Shown piece by piece: positions 23,465-30,898 of a DNA stretch of 64,000 nucleotides. The notes under the pieces were generated by a model. The model had not been told where the DNA came from. It was given only the letters and a program-made list of their open reading frames with translations, and made no database searches. Source of the stretch: Mycobacterium seoulense (lineage in GTDB: Bacteria; Actinomycetota; Actinomycetes; Mycobacteriales; Mycobacteriaceae). The stretch is from the NCBI RefSeq assembly GCF_010731595.1, contig NZ_AP022582.1, positions 2,976,001-3,040,000 of the forward strand, read 5' to 3'. Position numbers and translations under genes: made by a program. Position 1 is the first letter of the stretch; every line of letters starts with the position of its first letter.

Positions 23465-23837
23465 CCGGCCTCCTCAACCCTGTAACCGGTGATCCTTCGC
23501 CCCGACGACGCTCGCCAGCCAGGGCATAAAGGCTCTACCTCTGGTAGCACGATGACCCCGATCCGGTTGCTGGATCGGCTGTACCTGCAGACGTTGCCCT
23601 GAGCTGCGCGGACGCTCGTGCCCCCAGTCGGACTCGAACCGCCACTGGGCGGATTTTAAGTCCGTCTATCTGAGCGTTTGCAAGCGTTGACATCCGTTGG
23701 AACGATTGCAGAACTGGCTGTTGAACTGCATCTATCGAATGCTTTGCGTTTGCGAGGTTGGGAGCGTTTGGAAGCTGTGTGCATACATTTTGTTTACAGC
23801 CGTCTCGCGGCGGCCTGCGCGGGCTTGTCGAGCGGGC
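23465..23837. other. Gene-free stretch holding the distal att copy
   Basis: This 373-bp stretch contains no credible gene. It includes the 47-bp partial tRNA copy (23618-23664); the DNA after it is AT-richer than the backbone and holds only short open frames. An integrase gene would be expected here for an active island but none is recognisable. Confidence 0.6.
23618..23664 (-). repeat. Duplicated 3' half of tRNA-Leu (att site, distal)
   Basis: The 47 bp match 25627-25673 with one difference (C at 23642 against A at 25651). They contain the tRNA-Leu 3' half from the anticodon stem to the acceptor end, but the 5' half is missing and the sequence diverges abruptly after TCCG. This is the footprint left when an integrative element inserts into a tRNA 3' end and restores it on one side. 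Confidence 0.85.
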
Positions 23838-24599
23838 CTAGAACTTCACGGCAAGGTCTTGGCGGGCCAGCCTGCGAACGCCCCAGAAGTAGGTGACGAA
23901 GGGCATGGTGCACCACAAGAGGTTCAGGACTACGAACTTGACCCACATCTCGATGGGACTACTCATGCTGTGCAGGTTGTTTGCGATCTCTACCCCGAAG
24001 TAGACCGCTGGCAGCGTGACCTCCACGATCATCCCGGCCATGATGAACGAGAGTTGGGTACTGGTGAACCGCTTGCCGTGGCGGAAGAACTGCACCATCG
24101 CATACGCCTCGAATAATCCGACGAAGAAGGCGATCCACTCAAGAACGACGATCAGCGGGTCGCCATTGAGGTAGCGAGCATCGCCGCCGAGCAGTATGGG
24201 CGCCCACATGTACGTCCAGAGGGCACCATGCTGGACACCGTTCCTGATCTGGTCGAAGAACAACAGCCACGGCAGTTCCCAGATGAATCGTGGGATCAAC
24301 GCGATGAAGACCCAGACGATGACCATCGCACTGAGCCGTTCCGCCTTCGAGCGGTCACGTTGGCCGGGCAGCGGCAGCCACGGCAGCGCAAGTGCGGTCA
24401 CGAAACAGCCAACGACGAAGACGACCAGCGTGGTGGACGCGACAACGTGGGAGACCCCGCCATGAAACTCGAGGTACCAGAACACGATGTGGATGACGAA
24501 GAAGAACGCCAGGACGCCGAACAGCGACTTTTGCAGTGACGAGAGTCCGGGCTTCGCCGGGGAACCTTGCTTGTCGGGGACGCTGATCGTCTCAGTCAT
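23838..24599 (-). CDS. EXPERA-type (emopamil-binding-like) membrane protein
   Basis: This 253-residue protein has about six hydrophobic helices. The central run WTYMWAPILLGGDARY...DPLIVVLEW resembles the EXPERA/emopamil-binding pattern, in which acidic residues and Arg lie within the helices. Eukaryotic relatives are sterol isomerases or sigma-2 receptors; the bacterial role is unknown. ATG 24599 is chosen as the first start after the regulatory palindrome. It is divergent from the TetR gene and is probably its target. Confidence 0.6.
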   Translation of the reverse strand: MTETISVPDKQGSPAKPGLSSLQKSLFGVLAFFFVIHIVFWYLEFHGGVSHVVASTTLVVFVVGCFVTALALPWLPLPGQRDRSKAERLSAMVIVWVFIALIPRFIWELPWLLFFDQIRNGVQHGALWTYMWAPILLGGDARYLNGDPLIVVLEWIAFFVGLFEAYAMVQFFRHGKRFTSTQLSFIMAGMIVEVTLPAVYFGVEIANNLHSMSSPIEMWVKFVVLNLLWCTMPFVTYFWGVRRLARQDLAVKF

Positions 24600-24639
24600 G
24601 GGTTCGGCTTTCGCAGGGGTTGGGAGACTGTACTGTGGC

Positions 24640-24663
24640 AAAGCATGGCACACGCCATGTTTT
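24640..24663. promoter_or_regulatory. Palindrome in the TetR/EXPERA divergent promoter
   Basis: CATGGC at 24644-24649 and GCCATG at 24654-24659 form a perfect inverted repeat around ACAC, with A-rich left and T-rich right flanks extending the symmetry to 24640-24663. It lies 41 bp before the EXPERA-like start and 125 bp before the TetR start, as expected for the operator of the local TetR. Confidence 0.6.
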
Positions 24664-24787
24664 AGTAGCAAGGGTCGCTCCGGCGCTTTCGCGCAGGTGA
24701 GCGCCTACGGGCGCGGACACAGGAACTTCGGGCAATGTCTAAGCTGATCTCGATGAGGGAACGCGGTGAGCAGCGCGGACTGCGACT

Positions 24788-25390
24788 GTGACCGGAGGGA
24801 GACGCACCGCTCCGCGTCGCCCGATTGCTGGTCGACAGCAGCGGGGGGACCGGACCCGAGAACTGCTAATCGATGAGACGGTTCGCTGCATTCGCGAGGA
24901 AGGCTTCTCAGCGGCGAGTGCTCGACACATCATCGAACGAGCCGGGGTGAGTTGGGGCGTCATTCAGCACCACTTCGGGGATCGGGATGGTCTGCTGACT
25001 GCGGTGATTGAAGATGCCGTTGACCGTCTCGTCGCATCGCTTGAGGCGCTGGCCGATCCTGAGCGGGTCATCGCCACCGAAGACTTGGTGCAGGCGACGT
25101 GGAAGGCATTCGCCAATCCAAAGGCCATGGCGGGATTGGAGATTCTGATCGCAGCCAAAGACTTGCGTGGCCGCCTTCGTGGCCAACACATGGGTCGTCT
25201 CGGCGCGGCCTTGGCTGCGTTGACCGCCCGTCTGAATACCGGGAATGACCGTGAGCATGCCATCGCGTTGGGCATGCTTCTTTGGACCACGCCGGTAGCG
25301 ATGATGATCGCCGAGATGTTCGCCGCGCCTCCCCTGACCTGGAGGGACGCGCAGAAGGCGGTTGCCGACCTGATTGACGCGCATTCCTGA
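24788..25390 (+). CDS. TetR-family regulator in the tRNA island
   Basis: The 200-residue protein has a basic N-terminus and a TetR DNA-binding helix set (TRELLIDETVRCIREEGF, SAASARHIIERAGVSWGVIQHHFGDRDGLL). The ligand domain has no recognised close family. GTG 24788 has a weak ribosome site. It is divergent from the EXPERA-like gene across a palindrome and most likely represses that gene and itself. Confidence 0.8.
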   Translation: MTGGRRTAPRRPIAGRQQRGDRTRELLIDETVRCIREEGFSAASARHIIERAGVSWGVIQHHFGDRDGLLTAVIEDAVDRLVASLEALADPERVIATEDLVQATWKAFANPKAMAGLEILIAAKDLRGRLRGQHMGRLGAALAALTARLNTGNDREHAIALGMLLWTTPVAMMIAEMFAAPPLTWRDAQKAVADLIDAHS

Positions 25391-25474
25391 CCGGCCCCGG
25401 TGGCTCGGCTCTCGCAAGCAGGCCGAGCGGACGCACATCTGCACCTTGGCAAGCGTCACTGTCGAGTACGCAGG

Positions 25475-25537
25475 CCGCTGAGCTTCAAGAATCATCGACC
25501 GCTCGAACTCTGCAACTGCGCCCACACTCAAGCTGAC
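25475..25537 (-). pseudogene. Serine-resolvase fragment
   Basis: On the minus strand a short stretch reads SVGAVAEFERSMILEAQR. This matches the conserved linker helix of Tn3-type resolvases/invertases (GAVAEFERxxILERQREGI). Only about 20 residues are recognisable; no catalytic domain or HTH is found on either side. It is a scrap of a former recombinase inside the island. Confidence 0.5.
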
Positions 25538-25626
25538 GCTGCGCCGCCGCGCGAGCCTCAACGGCCCCCAAAGCCTTATCGAAGGCAGTCAGGCATCGCT
25601 GACTTGCCGTTATTGGTCCTGAACTG

Positions 25627-25673
25627 GTGCCCCCAGTCGGACTCGAACCGACACTGGGCGGATTTTAAGTCCG
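25627..25673 (-). repeat. tRNA-proximal copy of the 47-bp att repeat
   Basis: This copy lies within the intact tRNA-Leu gene and covers its 3' half. It differs from the distal copy at one base. Together the two define the island ends. Confidence 0.85.
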
Positions 25674-25701
25674 CTGCCTCTGCCAATTGGGCTATGGGGG
25701 C
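25628..25701 (-). tRNA. tRNA-Leu (anticodon UAA)
   Basis: A 74-nt cloverleaf on the minus strand: acceptor GCCCCCA/TGGGGGC with discriminator A, anticodon stem GCGGA/TCCGC around loop CTTAAAA (anticodon TAA, reading UUA), and T arm GTCGG-TTCGAGT-CCGAC. CCA is not encoded. The variable loop is only five nucleotides (CCAGT), whereas leucine tRNAs normally carry a long class II variable arm. Identity as Leu rests on the anticodon alone. It is the target gene of the island integration. Confidence 0.85.
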
Positions 25702-26059: not shown

Positions 26060-26968
26060 ATGGCATTTCTGACGACTCAGACAGAAGAGATGTTAGCTGC
26101 GGAGCAGCTGCTGTCGGGGATCAACACCAACCTGGCGGCGCAGAACGCCGGCGCCGCGGCGGCGACCACGGTGATCGCTCCCGCTGCCGCCGACCCGGTG
26201 TCGGCCCAGCAGGCGGCGATCTTCTCGGCGTACGGCACCCAGTACCAGGCGATCGCCACCGAGGCGCAGGCTCAGCTGGAGCAGTACGCGCAAACCCTGG
26301 GCATCAGCTCCGGCAGCTACGGGGACACCGAGGCCATCAATGCCGCCCAGGCCACTCTCGCGAGCGCCGCAGATCCCACTGCCGCGGCCGCTCCCGCCGC
26401 CGCGGCCGCCACGCCGTCCAACACTCCGCTCGACTGGCTGGCGTACCTCCTCGGTAGCACCGGCAACGGCACCAACCCGAACATGCTCGGCGGGATCTTC
26501 GGCCTGTCGGGTAACGGCGCCAACATCGGCAACATCGGTTTCGGCAACTGGGCCTCCGCGGGTTCCGACCTACTGGGCCTGGCCGGTGGCGGCCTGCTCG
26601 ACACCTCCGCCGCCGACGCCGCCGGTTCGGCCGCCGACGCGGCCGGCCTCGCCGACACCACGGCGCCGATGGCCGGCGGCGGCATGGCCGGCATGGGTGC
26701 GATGCCGATGGCCGCGGCGGGCCAGGCGAGCCTGGTCGGCAAGCTTTCGGTGCCGCCGACCTGGGCGGCCCCCGCCACCCCGGTGGTCGGCACGAGCGCC
26801 GCGCCGCTGGAGACCGTGGGCTGGACCGCCGCCGCGCCGCAGGCCGGCACCGGGGGCATCATCCCGGGGATGCCGGGGATGGGCGCGGCCGCGCGCAACA
26901 GCGCCGGCTTCGGTGCGCCGCGCTATGGCGTCAAGCCGATCGTCATGCCGAAGCCGACGGCCGTCTAG
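26060..26968 (+). CDS. PE8: PE family protein with C-terminal SVP-like tail (PE8-like)
   Basis: This 302-residue protein opens with a PE domain (MAFLTTQTEEMLAAEQLL, PAAADPVSAQQAAIF), ending with the type VII secretion signal YGDTE (YxxxD/E) at about residues 91-95. A Gly/Ala-rich middle follows. The last 80 residues ([12 protein letters not shown]...GAPRYGVKPIVMPKP) match the C-terminal SVP region normally found on PPE-SVP proteins. Strong ribosome site. It is first in a PE-PPE-Esx-Esx set equivalent to Rv1040c-Rv1037c and should be exported by ESX-5 as a heterodimer with the next PPE protein. Confidence 0.88.
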   Translation: MAFLTTQTEEMLAAEQLLSGINTNLAAQNAGAAAATTVIAPAAADPVSAQQAAIFSAYGTQYQAIATEAQAQLEQYAQTLGISSGSYGDTEAINAAQATLASAADPTAAAAPAAAAATPSNTPLDWLAYLLGSTGNGTNPNMLGGIFGLSGNGANIGNIGFGNWASAGSDLLGLAGGGLLDTSAADAAGSAADAAGLADTTAPMAGGGMAGMGAMPMAAAGQASLVGKLSVPPTWAAPATPVVGTSAAPLETVGWTAAAPQAGTGGIIPGMPGMGAAARNSAGFGAPRYGVKPIVMPKPTAV

Positions 26969-27027
26969 GCCTTCGCCACTTCCTCACAGACTTCGAATTC
27001 CAATAGACAAAAGGAGCGGGAAACACA

Positions 27028-28185
27028 ATGGTTCTTGACTTTGCAGCAGTTCCCCCGGAGATCACCTCCTCGCTCATGTACGCCGGCGCGGGCGCCGCGC
27101 CACTGATGGCGGCCGCGACGGCCTACGCCAACCTGGCCGCCGAGGTGAGCGCCACGGCGACCCAGTGGGAGTCGATCATCTCGTTGCTGACCAGCGAGCA
27201 GTGGACGGGCGGCGGGTCGGCCGCGGCCGCGGCCGCGGCCCAGCCGATCATCGCCTACCTGACCGAGACCGCAACGACGCTCGAACAGGCGAGCGCGCAG
27301 GCCACGGCGTCGGCGGCCGCCTACGAAGCGGCGTTCGCGGCGACGGTGCCCCCGCCGGTCATCGCGGCCAACCGGACGCTGCTGGCGACACTGGTCGCGA
27401 CCAACTTCCTGGGCGTCAATTCGGCCGCGATCGCCGCGACCGAAGCGCAGTACGCCGCGATGTGGGCGCAGGACGCCGCCATGATGGCCGCCTACCAGGC
27501 GGCCTCGGCCGTGGCGGGTGTCCTGACACCGGTGACGCCGCTGACGTCGACCACCAACCCGGCGGCCGCGGCGGCCGCGGACAGCACCGCGCTCGCGGCG
27601 GACTCGACGGGCGGCACGGTCCAGGCGCTGGCAGCTCCCATCTCCAATGCCGCGGCGGCCGCCCCCTCGCTGCCGTTCACGACCAGCGGCCTGCTGTCCT
27701 CGATCGACAACTTCATCGGCACCCCGTCCGTGTTCAACGGCATCAACGGTGTGGTCAACACCGCGGCCTGGTGGGTCATGAACACCATCCCGACGGCGGT
27801 GTCCCTGGGCCACACCCTGGGCTCGGTGCCGTCGATCCCGTTCGCGCTCACCGACTCCGTCACTCCCCTCGCGGGCGGGATGGTGCAGGGCACCATGGTG
27901 GGCTCGGTGTCGGGAGCGGGTGCGTCGGCCGCCCTGGGCGAGGCCTCCGCGGTCGGCGGGCTGTCCGTGCCGGCCGGCTGGAATGCGGCCGCCCCGGCGT
28001 CGTTGGCGTCCTCCACCGCTCCGCTCGAGGGCTCGGGGTGGACGGCCGCGGCCGAGGCCGAGCCGGTCGCGGCGATGCCCGGAATGCCGGGCATGGCCGC
28101 TGCGGCAAAGGGCGCCGGCGCCTACGGCTCCGGACCGCGGTACGGCTTCAAGCCGATCGTCATGCCCAAGCAGGTCGTTGTCTGA
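27028..28185 (+). CDS. PPE15: PPE-SVP family protein (PPE15-like)
   Basis: The 385-residue protein has the N-terminal PPE domain (FAAVPPEITSSLMYAG; WTG turn in SEQWTGGG; FLGVNSAAIAATEAQYAAMWAQD) of about 170 residues and an Ala-rich linker. The C-terminal SVP motif is GGLSVPAGWNAA, ending YGFKPIVMPK. The same ending is seen in the PE protein upstream. AAGGAGCGGG precedes ATG 27028. It is the predicted partner of the PE8-like protein and an ESX-5 substrate. Confidence 0.92.
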   Translation: MVLDFAAVPPEITSSLMYAGAGAAPLMAAATAYANLAAEVSATATQWESIISLLTSEQWTGGGSAAAAAAAQPIIAYLTETATTLEQASAQATASAAAYEAAFAATVPPPVIAANRTLLATLVATNFLGVNSAAIAATEAQYAAMWAQDAAMMAAYQAASAVAGVLTPVTPLTSTTNPAAAAAADSTALAADSTGGTVQALAAPISNAAAAAPSLPFTTSGLLSSIDNFIGTPSVFNGINGVVNTAAWWVMNTIPTAVSLGHTLGSVPSIPFALTDSVTPLAGGMVQGTMVGSVSGAGASAALGEASAVGGLSVPAGWNAAAPASLASSTAPLEGSGWTAAAEAEPVAAMPGMPGMAAAAKGAGAYGSGPRYGFKPIVMPKQVVV

Positions 28186-28346
28186 TGTCGGGATTACCGC
28201 TACGGGAAATAAGGGGGTACATGTCACCCGTTTGAGGCGATCAGTTAACCGGTAGGCCGTAATCTGTCCATAACGCGGCCACCACCGCATCAATTACAAC
28301 TGTTAAGACTTCGACATTGAAGGCTTGAACGACAAGGAGAAAGCAA

Positions 28347-28643
28347 ATGGCAACACGTTTTATGACGGACCCGCACGAAATGCGGGCGATGGCGGGCCGC
28401 TTCGAGGTGCACGCCCAGACGGTCGAGGACGAGGCCCGCAAGATGTGGGCGTCGTCGATGAACATCGCCGGCTCGGGCTGGAGTGGTCAGGCGCAGGCGA
28501 CCTCGTACGACACCATGGGTCAGGTCAACCAGGCCTTCCGCAACATCGTCAACATGCTCCACGGGGTGCGCGACGGGCTGATCCGCGACGCCAACAACTA
28601 CGAGCAGCAAGAGCAGGCCTCGCAGCAGATCCTCGGCAGCTAG
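28347..28643 (+). CDS. esxJ: WXG100 protein of the EsxJ/Mtb9.9 partner family
   Basis: A 98-residue helical hairpin protein ([34 protein letters not shown]...) with the WSG turn and the C-terminal signal YEQQE (YxxxE). It is almost the EsxJ/K/M/P/W sequence I recall from M. tuberculosis; synteny favours EsxJ. It pairs with the following EsxI-type protein as a secreted heterodimer. AAGGAGAAAG precedes its ATG; 161 bp separate it from the PPE gene, room for its own promoter. Confidence 0.92.
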
Positions 28644-28684
28644 TCGAACCTACTGTCGCCCAACACTTTCGAAGGAGCTAAGCA

Positions 28685-28969
28685 ATGACCATTAACTACC
28701 AGTTCGGCGATGTCGACGCCCACGGCGCCTTGATCCGCGCCCAGGCCGCGTCTTTGGAGGCTGAGCACCAGGCCATCGTTCGCGATGTGCTTGCTGCGGG
28801 TGACTTCTGGGGCGGCGCCGGTTCGGTGGCCTGCCAGGAGTTCATCACCCAGTTGGGTCGCAACTTCCAGGTGATCTACGAGCAGGCCAACGCCCACGGG
28901 CAGAAGGTGCAGAGCGCCGGCAGCAACATGGCCAGCACCGACAGCGCCGTTGGGTCCAGCTGGGCCTGA
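28685..28969 (+). CDS. esxI: WXG100 protein of the EsxI/Mtb9.9 family
   Basis: The 94-residue protein MTINYQFGDVDAHGALIRAQ... has the WGG turn in DFWGGAGS and belongs to the Mtb9.9 (EsxI/L/N/O/V) family. GAAGGAG precedes the ATG, 41 bp after esxJ, so translation of both partners is balanced. It is followed by a strong terminator hairpin that ends the ESX-5a cluster. Confidence 0.92.
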   Translation: MTINYQFGDVDAHGALIRAQAASLEAEHQAIVRDVLAAGDFWGGAGSVACQEFITQLGRNFQVIYEQANAHGQKVQSAGSNMASTDSAVGSSWA

Positions 28970-28988
28970 CACCGCGTCCTCACTCGAG

Positions 28989-29019
28989 GGGCCCGCACAC
29001 CACGGTGTGCGGGCCCTTT
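28989..29019 (+). terminator. Intrinsic terminator-like hairpin after esxI
   Basis: GGGCCCGCACAC at 28989-29000 pairs with GTGTGCGGGCCC at 29005-29016, extending to a 13-bp stem with a tiny loop, followed by TTTC. It lies 19 bp after the esxI stop and just before the 3' end of the convergent PPE gene. Confidence 0.8.
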
Positions 29020-29045
29020 CGGTTCCTGGGGCCTCGCGGCCGGCG

Positions 29046-30404
29046 CTATCCGGCCACCGGCGAGCGCGGGATGAGTGAGGGGCGGAACCCGATCCGGTGA
29101 ACCGCGCCGTCGGACTCACGCCCGACCATGGCGCCCAGCGGCAGCTTGGAAATGCCGGTGGCCTGTGACGGCGTGGGCGGCGCACCCCACCCGGCCGGAG
29201 TGCCGTTGGTGTCCAGGGCGGCCGGGAGCGGCGTCACCGACGACACGGTGTCGGCCCACGTCGGCGGCACCGACAACGTCCCCAGCGAGGCGGCCTGGCC
29301 CACACCCGCCGAGGCGCCCTCGCCCAGACCACCGACCGGTCCCAGGGTTTCGAGGCCACCCAGGCCCCCGACGCCCGGCACACCGGCGGCGCCCTCCGCC
29401 CCAAGGATCGAACCCGCGCCCTGCATGTCGATTCCCAGGCCGTACACGTCCATCCCGATCCCTGCGCCGTCGGCGCCCAGGCCCGCGCCATCTCCGCCCA
29501 GACCAGCGAAATCCGAGCCCACGCCGACCGCATCGGACGCCAGCCCGGCGGCCTCCCCGTTGGAGCCACTGCCCAGGGCGGTGGCCAGGCCGGAGACGGT
29601 CCCCAGTCCCGTGCTCGCGGTCTTCGTCGCTCCCTTGGACGTGCCGGTCAGGCTCGATAGTGCGCCGAGGGGGCTGGAAGCCCCGGAAGATCCCAATGAC
29701 GCCCCGGTACCCACCGCCGCCTGCGACAGACTCGCGCCGGTCGTCGACCCGGGCGTCGACATGCTCTGCAGGGCTTGCGGCACGGTGGACACCGCCTGCG
29801 AGGATGCCGTCTGGCCCGCGCTGCCCGCCTGGGTGGCGGCCGCCTGGGCCGTCGCGCCGGCCTGCCCGGCGACCCCACCCGGGTTGGTCGTCTGGGGCGG
29901 CGGCGCGAAGGTGCTGAAGGTTGACGCGGACGCCGAACTGGCGGCGTAGGTGTACATCGCGGTGGCGTCCTGGGCCCACATCTCGCTGTACTCCGCCTCG
30001 GTGGCCATGATCGCCGGAGTGTTCTGGCCCAGGACGTTGGTCGCGATCAACGCCATGAGCCGAGCGCGGTTGGTCGCGATGAGCGGCGGCGGCACCGTCA
30101 TCGCGTATGCCGCTTCGTAGGCTGCCGCCGCGGCGGCGGCCTGCACCGCCGACTGCTCGCACAGCGCCGCGGTGGCCCGCAACCACACGATGTACGGCGC
30201 GACCCCGGCGGCCATCGCCGTCGACGTCGAACCAAGCCATTCGTCCGTGAGGGTCGTGATCACCGATTCGTAGCCACCGGCGGCAGCGTTCACCTCGAGG
30301 GCCAGTGAGTCCCATCCGGCCGACGCGGCCAGCAGTGTCGCGGGCCCGGGCCCCGCATACATCCGACCGGAGTTGACTTCCGGAGGCAAGGCGCCAAAAT
30401 CCAT
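29046..30404 (-). CDS. PPE-SVP family protein, convergent with the Esx cluster
   Basis: This 452-residue protein has a full PPE domain ([23 protein letters not shown] turn; [24 protein letters not shown]). A long Gly/Ala/Ser-rich middle contains GLG-type short repeats ([20 protein letters not shown]). It ends in an SVP motif ([13 protein letters not shown]) with C-terminus [15 protein letters not shown] 30404 is chosen by homology and by AAAGGAATAACG upstream. No PE gene accompanies it, so it must borrow a partner, perhaps the PE8-like protein. No ortholog is remembered at this spot in M. tuberculosis. Confidence 0.88.
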
Positions 30405-30898
30405 CGTTATTCCTTTTTTTCTTCTTGAATTGTTGACCCCGTCACATGCGGTGTGATTCGAGGACGCGACGGCAGCCGTTGGCCCGTCAGTCACGCGGCG
30501 AGTCGATCGCTCGACGAAACACGCGTCAAGACAACGTCATTCGTAACGTCGCGTAACGTCCAGTTAACGAAAGCCCGGGGACAGCATCGTCCCCTGACGT
30601 TCTGTATACGTGGGAAGCACCGGCAGCGTTCACTGACGTGTGCCCTCCTCGATCAACGAAACCCGTTCTTGCATACCATGTTTGGGGAGCCTAACCTCGC
30701 AATGGGCCCGCCAGCTCAACTCAACTACTATGCGTCCCAGTATTTTTGGCGGGGCGCCCCTATCTCAAGCCGGCTGATGTGAAACATATAAAACTCATAT
30801 TTGAATATCCATTGAGTGACGCACCCCACACCGCCAACATTTGAGCTTGCTATGAACTTCGTGACAGTTGGGTGTGTGGCTTGCCAGAATGTAGGAAC
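30405..30898. promoter_or_regulatory. Divergent promoter region of PPE gene and trcR
   Basis: This 494-bp gene-free region becomes clearly AT-rich near trcR (ACATATAAAACTCATATTTG at 30783-30802), in line with the AT-rich autoregulated trcR promoter described for M. tuberculosis. Nearer the PPE gene, CGTAACGTC is repeated at 30542-30550 and 30552-30560, a perfect 10-bp-period direct repeat. Read on the PPE strand it is GACGTTACG-C-GACGTTACG and shares GTTACGCGA with the repeats before the PE8-like gene. Confidence 0.5.

Follow-up and report, generated by a model that had tools for sequence, protein, structure and literature searches.

The window analysed here (G000:C1:2976001-3040000) is a stretch of 64,000 nucleotides from a Mycobacterium seoulense genome that consists of one contig of 5,531,300 bases. 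An intact tRNA-Leu(UAA) gene (anticodon taa; ARAGORN) is located at 25625-25701 on the minus strand, and a co-oriented copy of its 3' half, missing the 5' half, is located 2,009 bp away at 23616-23664 (49 nt, minus strand, 47 of 49 identical to 25625-25673). The two copies were placed by a repeat finder at 23615-23664 and 25624-25673, as a two-copy family with 96% identity over 50 nt, and over the inner 47 nt (23618-23664 and 25627-25673) they differ at one base (97.872% identity), as had been reported in a preliminary description of this DNA that also recognised one copy as part of an intact tRNA and the other as a 3' half only. A 113-nt query spanning the remnant returned two matches in the source genome at E <= 0.001, both of them the known copies.

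The 1,960 bp between the copies have a GC content of 0.607 (23665-25624) against 0.683 for the window, a value below those of all 581 overlapping 1,960-bp comparison windows, and the interior is thus AT-richer, as first described. Two divergent genes were recognised inside the island, again in agreement with the preliminary description: a 253-aa EBP/EXPERA-like membrane protein gene at 23838-24599 on the minus strand (Pfam EBP, E 1.5e-4, below the cut-off) and a 200-aa TetR-family regulator gene at 24788-25390 on the plus strand (TetR_N, E 1.2e-10). Integration and transfer genes were not among the genes recognised, and no phage gene (integrase, capsid, terminase or packaging) was found in the island. 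The tRNA-proximal tail (25391-25624) carries no integrase gene and no near-arm octamer (see below), has no similarity to the other fetched loci at E <= 0.01, and gave no Pfam match when its stop-free pieces were checked. The earlier statement that the region has no integrase held when the source genome was searched, none of its seven Phage_integrase matches falling there. As in tRNA-targeted islands, an intact tRNA stands at one end and a co-oriented displaced fragment at the other; because no integrase gene lies inside, the island was filed as a remnant. Upstream of the tRNA-Leu gene, at 26060-30494 of the window, ORFs resembling PE, PPE and Esx proteins by eye were observed.

Empty sites in relatives

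To rank relatives, DNA spanning the tRNA gene and its upstream side was compared (144 of 148 genomes matched), and stretches of 12.9-16 kb were fetched from each of the six nearest. In four of the six (G038, G080, G100 and G062; 92%, 89%, 89% and 87% identical, respectively, to the window along a 435-bp segment made up of the tRNA and the DNA upstream of it) the flank ending at 23615 joins one intact tRNA-Leu directly, and the site is empty. The remaining two, G036 and G103, have different DNA between the outer flank and the tRNA. Neither a second 3' half nor the TetR/EXPERA genes were found at the site in any of the six fetched stretches (E <= 1e-4). This comparison had been set beforehand as a test of the island, and its outcome favours the island reading; tRNA-targeted integration, as initially proposed, is supported both by the empty sites and by the end sequence described below, which is homologous to that of integrase-bearing islands.

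An ordinary segmental duplication of the tRNA half, with both genes native to the locus, is contradicted by these empty sites, and the low GC of the interior and the homologous arm on integrase-bearing islands also speak against it; even with the backbone-like codon usage of the EXPERA gene in its favour, such an origin can hardly be credited. Foreign codon usage, also raised at the outset, was seen in one gene of the pair: the TetR gene scores below 38 of 39 window ORFs, but the EXPERA gene scores below only 27 of 39, and its usage is therefore ordinary, not foreign.

The TetR/EXPERA gene pair

The regulator is assigned to the TetR family by its DNA-binding domain (TetR_N, 41.4 bits against a cut-off of 24), and the membrane protein scores 22.5 bits against PF05241, for which the cut-off is 25.7. 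Database homologues of the latter numbered 146 at E <= 1e-3; among the 120 listed, some carry PF05241, and the names given are mostly "hypothetical protein", with some "membrane protein" or "emopamil binding protein". The best PDB match of its predicted model (mean pLDDT 82.2; Foldseek) was human EBP, a sterol isomerase, with probability 1.00, TM 0.51/0.59 and E 4.9e-3, no PDB match being obtained at E <= 0.001. Against five relatives, dN/dS for the EXPERA gene is 0.08-0.13, a value which mostly reflects history outside the window island.

At E <= 1e-10, 24 of 146 genomes contain a protein matching EXPERA, and in 15 of these, the source genome included, the identity is 69-100%. DNA homology of the pair to the window starts at 23827-23842 and ends by 25410, which gives its rough limits. 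The TetR protein is 73-87% identical in nine of the 14 other loci and about 48% identical in four, and has no match in L072. Between the divergent genes lies the palindrome CATGGCACACGCCATG (24644-24659), a proposed TetR operator on account of its position and conservation: elsewhere in the 64-kb window no site comes within one mismatch of it, and among the 14 other loci it is perfect in seven and has one mismatch in two. It is missing from five loci, all of which carry a more distant version of the pair: the four with TetR at about 48%, together with L072. Within these five, the EXPERA protein is 74-75% identical in four, and in the remaining one it matches in two segments (83% and 69%). Through this CATGGCn4GCCATG palindrome, the TetR protein probably represses both the divergent EBP-like gene and itself.

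Neighbours of the pair in the 14 other loci are mostly different; the exceptions are the sister-genome pairs L065/L066 and L071/L073, a 1.8-kb flank common to L063 and L064, and short segments shared by L070 with L072 and with L074. The EBP-like gene, the TetR gene and the conserved palindrome form a compact unit found in several chromosomal contexts, and a search of plasmids for the pair gave one weak match (24.7% identity). The candidate idea that the pair travels with this attachment system was rejected, as none of the 14 other pair loci (6.6-13 kb) has a tRNA-Leu; ten have no tRNA, three have tRNA-Met and one has tRNA-Ala. No function for the pair was met in the literature searched.

The far arm and its octamers

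The island end adjoining the remnant (23665-23803, plus strand) is common to other islands, as delimited by a 10-sequence alignment and an arm model, and is taken as the far (P) arm of the attachment site. It contains two direct TGYWTACA octamers 11 bp apart, 113 bp inside the remnant: TGCATACA at 23780-23787 (plus strand, island position 165) and TGTTTACA at 23791-23798 (plus strand, island position 176). From their position and conservation, these are putative arm-type sites. Mycobacteriophages Giles and L5 are described as having putative arm-type sites in directly oriented pairs (PMC3203893), and in tRNA-using mycobacteriophages arm-site pairs are described as flanking the attP core (PMC10865867).

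When up to one mismatch was allowed, the joint motif TGTGCATACATTTTGTTTACA (TGCATACA, 3 bp and TGTTTACA) was found in 4 of 146 genomes; when up to two were allowed, it was found in 18 of 396, a backward control pattern being found in 5 of 396. In 10 of these 18 genomes the motif stands 101-114 bp past a tRNA-Leu 3' half (36-47 of 49 nt identical in nine, 31 of 49 in G257), and in the remaining eight only 20-23 of 49 nt are identical to the tRNA-Leu 3' half. Non-mycobacterial motif matches (18 of 21), together with L107 and L109, were dismissed, there being no tRNA-Leu half alongside.

A sequence model built from 10 examples of the 139-nt far arm, the window's among them, was run on 396 genomes. 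It found 14 ends at E <= 7.5e-12, the 10 used for training and four untrained ones (G360, G200, G366 and G264); at E <= 0.01, some match was present in 46 genomes, mostly weak. The four untrained ends were found by the model and not hand-picked by motif, although that of G360 was also returned by the motif search with at most two mismatches. The octamer pair, 11 bp apart and with 0-1 mismatch in each octamer, is present in 9 of 9 motif-picked ends and in 3 of 4 model-only ends (mismatches in first and second octamer: G360, 1 and 1; G200, 0 and 1; G366, 1 and 0; G264, 1 and 2). The G200 and G264 ends are at tRNA-Leu and that of G360 at tRNA-Tyr, and all three genomes have an integrase of the clade described below; in G366 just the core is kept, and no clade integrase was found in the 20 kb fetched. 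Among the papers listed in literature searches on CIMEs, tRNA-Leu islands of mycobacteria, arm-type sites, EXPERA/TetR and PICIs, none mentions the island or the arm signal in its title or at the start of its abstract. The arm signal, common to the same end of other islands, is new here.

Integrase and near arm in nine complete islands

Nine islands, the window's included, are complete and each on one contig: G000 (2.0 kb), G281 (4.5 kb), G200 (8.4 kb), G006 (9.2 kb), G068 (9.5 kb), G213 (10.2 kb), G185 (10.3 kb), G119 (10.9 kb) and G360 (about 10 kb). Outside this set were left G301 (tRNA-Leu on the other strand, beyond two remnants), G343 (contig end), G264 (split over two contigs), G257 and G366 (where the threshold applied yielded no tRNA-Leu 3' half) and the metagenome-assembled L087 (arm interrupted), and the islands without the motif (G077, G053, G027 and G042) were compared at their ends only.

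Six of the nine have, at the tRNA side, a full-length tyrosine integrase of one clade (identity to the G119 reference: G213, 82%; G006, 79%; G200, 71-73%; G360, 65-66%; G185, 63%). At E <= 1e-90, integrases of this clade were found in 62 of 396 genomes, a more distant group of 58-60% identity counted in; at the same threshold none was found in the source genome, where 4 of 19 candidates were scored. In G281 a 143-aa ORF matches the N-terminal part of the clade integrase, and in the G068 and window islands none was found. A near-side TGYWTACA octamer is present 44-66 bp before the tRNA end in all seven islands that have the integrase or its fragment, and in neither of the two integrase-less islands (last 160 bp, 0-1 mismatch), so that the link between integrase loss and near-arm loss is drawn from small numbers, with n=2 islands entirely without integrase and most ends picked by motif. 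The bases directly before the tRNA are TGAAC in the window and G281 and TGACC in G119, G213 and G185, a likeness which suggests that the island has kept its original extremity and that what was lost came from its interior.

These data also bear on whether the element ever had an integrase of its own or was served in trans by that of a helper. The latter would accommodate the 9.5-kb restriction-modification island of G068, which is likewise without integrase and has the far arm in common with integrase-bearing islands, but the near octamer is missing as well from both integrase-less islands, decay of the integrase is visible in the N-terminal fragment of G281, and the source genome yielded no clade integrase at the above threshold; dependence on a helper from the outset is accordingly very improbable.

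The tail of the window island was searched for an integrase relic by tblastn with the called proteins of seven other islands, the best match having E 0.010. It covers 25524-25586 (minus strand; a possible relic of residues about 333-353) and aligns with residues about 344-362 of the G006 integrase (19 aa, 63%); matches to G119 (E 0.55) and G200 (E 0.76) fall in the same place and register, on the strand expected for the integrase. Nineteen control stretches of the window gave best E values of 0.011 and 0.013, and reversed queries 0.29; as the control stretches nearly equal the match, it is not significant and is suggestive only. A match of this kind would be expected if the N-terminal part and the near arm had been deleted, but it proves nothing; since no certain piece of integrase survives, the loss is deduced from comparison with the other islands. 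A serine-resolvase relic suspected by eye at about 25440-25561 (minus strand) was dropped after searches of Pfam to E 10 and by tblastn against plasmids gave null results.

Related islands and the other side of the tRNA

Cargo varies among the related islands. That of G119, which also appears as viral contig L108, contains phage capsid, portal and terminase genes together with the clade integrase, and that of G213 contains homologues of the G119 capsid (79% identical) and portal (53%), also with the clade integrase. The restriction-modification genes of the G068 island encode a restriction enzyme of the Cfr10I/Bse634I type, a cytosine methylase and Vsr. In the G281 island an AIPR protein was recognised, together with a weak match to the AbiJ domain, which scored 22.6 bits where the cut-off is 34. 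The attachment system is thus common to satellite-like (G119, G213) and defence-type (G068, G281) cargo.

Several further arrangements were observed. In G301 (L128:348-2898), a 2.5-kb element with an ArsR-type regulator and a cation-efflux gene lies between two tRNA-Leu 3' halves, with no integrase match on the contig and the intact tRNA on the opposite strand. A second clade integrase relic (60% identity) lies just outside the remnant in G006 (L053:1004-1699), a sign of tandem accretion. The G360 island (L195), with the shared far arm and a 65-66% identical integrase, has tRNA-Tyr(GTA) as its target. In a Mycobacteriaceae MAG (L087:1202-3709), a tRNA-Leu half is accompanied by a far arm that is interrupted by about 2.3 kb of inserted DNA.

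Clade integrases of about 58-60% identity also occur on the 5' side of tRNA-Leu (e.g., G042 and G098), and 5'-half remnants were found in G042, G088 and G105, the tRNA-adjoining integrase of G088 being more distant (35%). Weak arm-model matches were seen at 5' halves, by eye of tRNA-Met(CAU), in L180, L181, L184, L185, L186 and L191, and at a tRNA-Leu 5' half in L187; the 5'-half junctions of these matches lie, by eye, in the anticodon stem-loop. In G105 (L161:1001-17050) the same tRNA-Leu is flanked on its 5' side by an island of about 16 kb, which has a 5'-half remnant and, at the tRNA, two integrase fragments of the same clade that are 81% and 62% identical to G119 over 57 and 60 residues. 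M. tuberculosis would have integrase fragments in the corresponding region (Rv1054/Rv1055) according to the preliminary description; among the papers listed in a literature search on Rv1054/Rv1055, none contains those words. The G105 arrangement resembles the case so described, and, being on the opposite (5') side of tRNA-Leu, would be an independent insertion and not a counterpart of the window island.

Probable origin and decay of the island

The window island is best explained by site-specific integration at tRNA-Leu(UAA) and a subsequent loss of the integrase and the near arm, an account with a probability of roughly 0.8. An element with a tyrosine integrase of the tRNA-Leu(UAA)-using clade would have recombined with the tRNA gene, the exchange probably falling within the anticodon stem-loop or close to it, at the start of the shared 3' half. 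The tRNA, now the attL side, would have been regenerated by the element's own 3' half, and the original host 3' half, the present attR core, displaced by 2.0 kb, as comparison with the relatives bears out. The integrase gene and the tRNA-side near arm would have been lost later, to judge from related islands, leaving the far arm, both cores and a two-gene cargo. With no integrase and only one of its two arms, the island would not be expected to excise unaided, and it looks grounded, in the sense of immobile.

Departure in cis, in the company of an element that has newly arrived, might still be open to the island. If it were a cis-mobilizable element of this kind, it would depart once a related element had integrated at the adjoining intact tRNA-Leu, because the composite would then combine a near arm from the newcomer with the far arm of the window island. 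The retention of the far arm and both cores is consistent with this, accretion seems to occur at the site (the second relic outside the G006 remnant; the two remnants around the ArsR and cation-efflux pair of G301), and CIMEs are defined by attL and attR being retained with integration genes absent (PMC5704250). Yet no genome was seen with a newcomer adjoining the window island, which, its near arm missing, is alone an incomplete substrate, and we consider it unlikely that the island is mobile in this way.

On the preferred account of integration followed by decay, the surviving end signal, the missing end signal and the probable maker integrase clade are now measured rather than guessed, and the arm model provides a handle for integrase-less islands in other mycobacteria that are missed by searches requiring an integrase. 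A broader proposal, which we put forward as doubtful, is that one mycobacterial tyrosine-integrase family, crossing at tRNA anticodon stem-loops, serves a shared pool of islands via the two-octamer arm, with insertion on the 3' or 5' side set by the half that attP copies and with integrase-less members that have kept the far arm being cis-mobilizable. The shared pool would then comprise phage satellites, restriction-modification and defence islands, and small cargo elements with a regulator and a membrane protein.

Comparison with known systems

As in the tRNA/tmRNA islands of Islander (PMC4383910), a regenerated tRNA and a displaced fragment mark the ends of the window island, which differs in having no remaining integrase gene. 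The same target and the same half are used by prophage phiMAB47J26_1 (PMC3986857), the 48-bp att of which is the tRNA-Leu(UAA) 3' half with one difference from the window; that prophage is 60.5 kb long, against 2.0 kb and two cargo genes for the window island. Mycobacterial PICI-like satellites (PMC10654092) are matched by the G119 and G213 islands in capsid, portal and clade integrase, and by G119 in terminase, but not by the window island, in which no phage gene was found.

Among phage records, the closest to the G119 integrase are Gaia and Nebkiss (50% identity) and Optimus, Redno2 and Minerva (48%). Gaia and Omega use tRNA-Leu-CAA (PMC10865867), whereas the target in the window is a different leucine tRNA and the window island is without integrase.

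The window island is like a CIME (PMC5704250) in being without integration and transfer genes and in keeping both att cores, here together with the far arm, and unlike one in that the near-arm octamer is absent, mobilization is putative and the ancestor is not known as conjugative. The window island is thus a CIME-like tRNA island remnant, of a kind that is well known.
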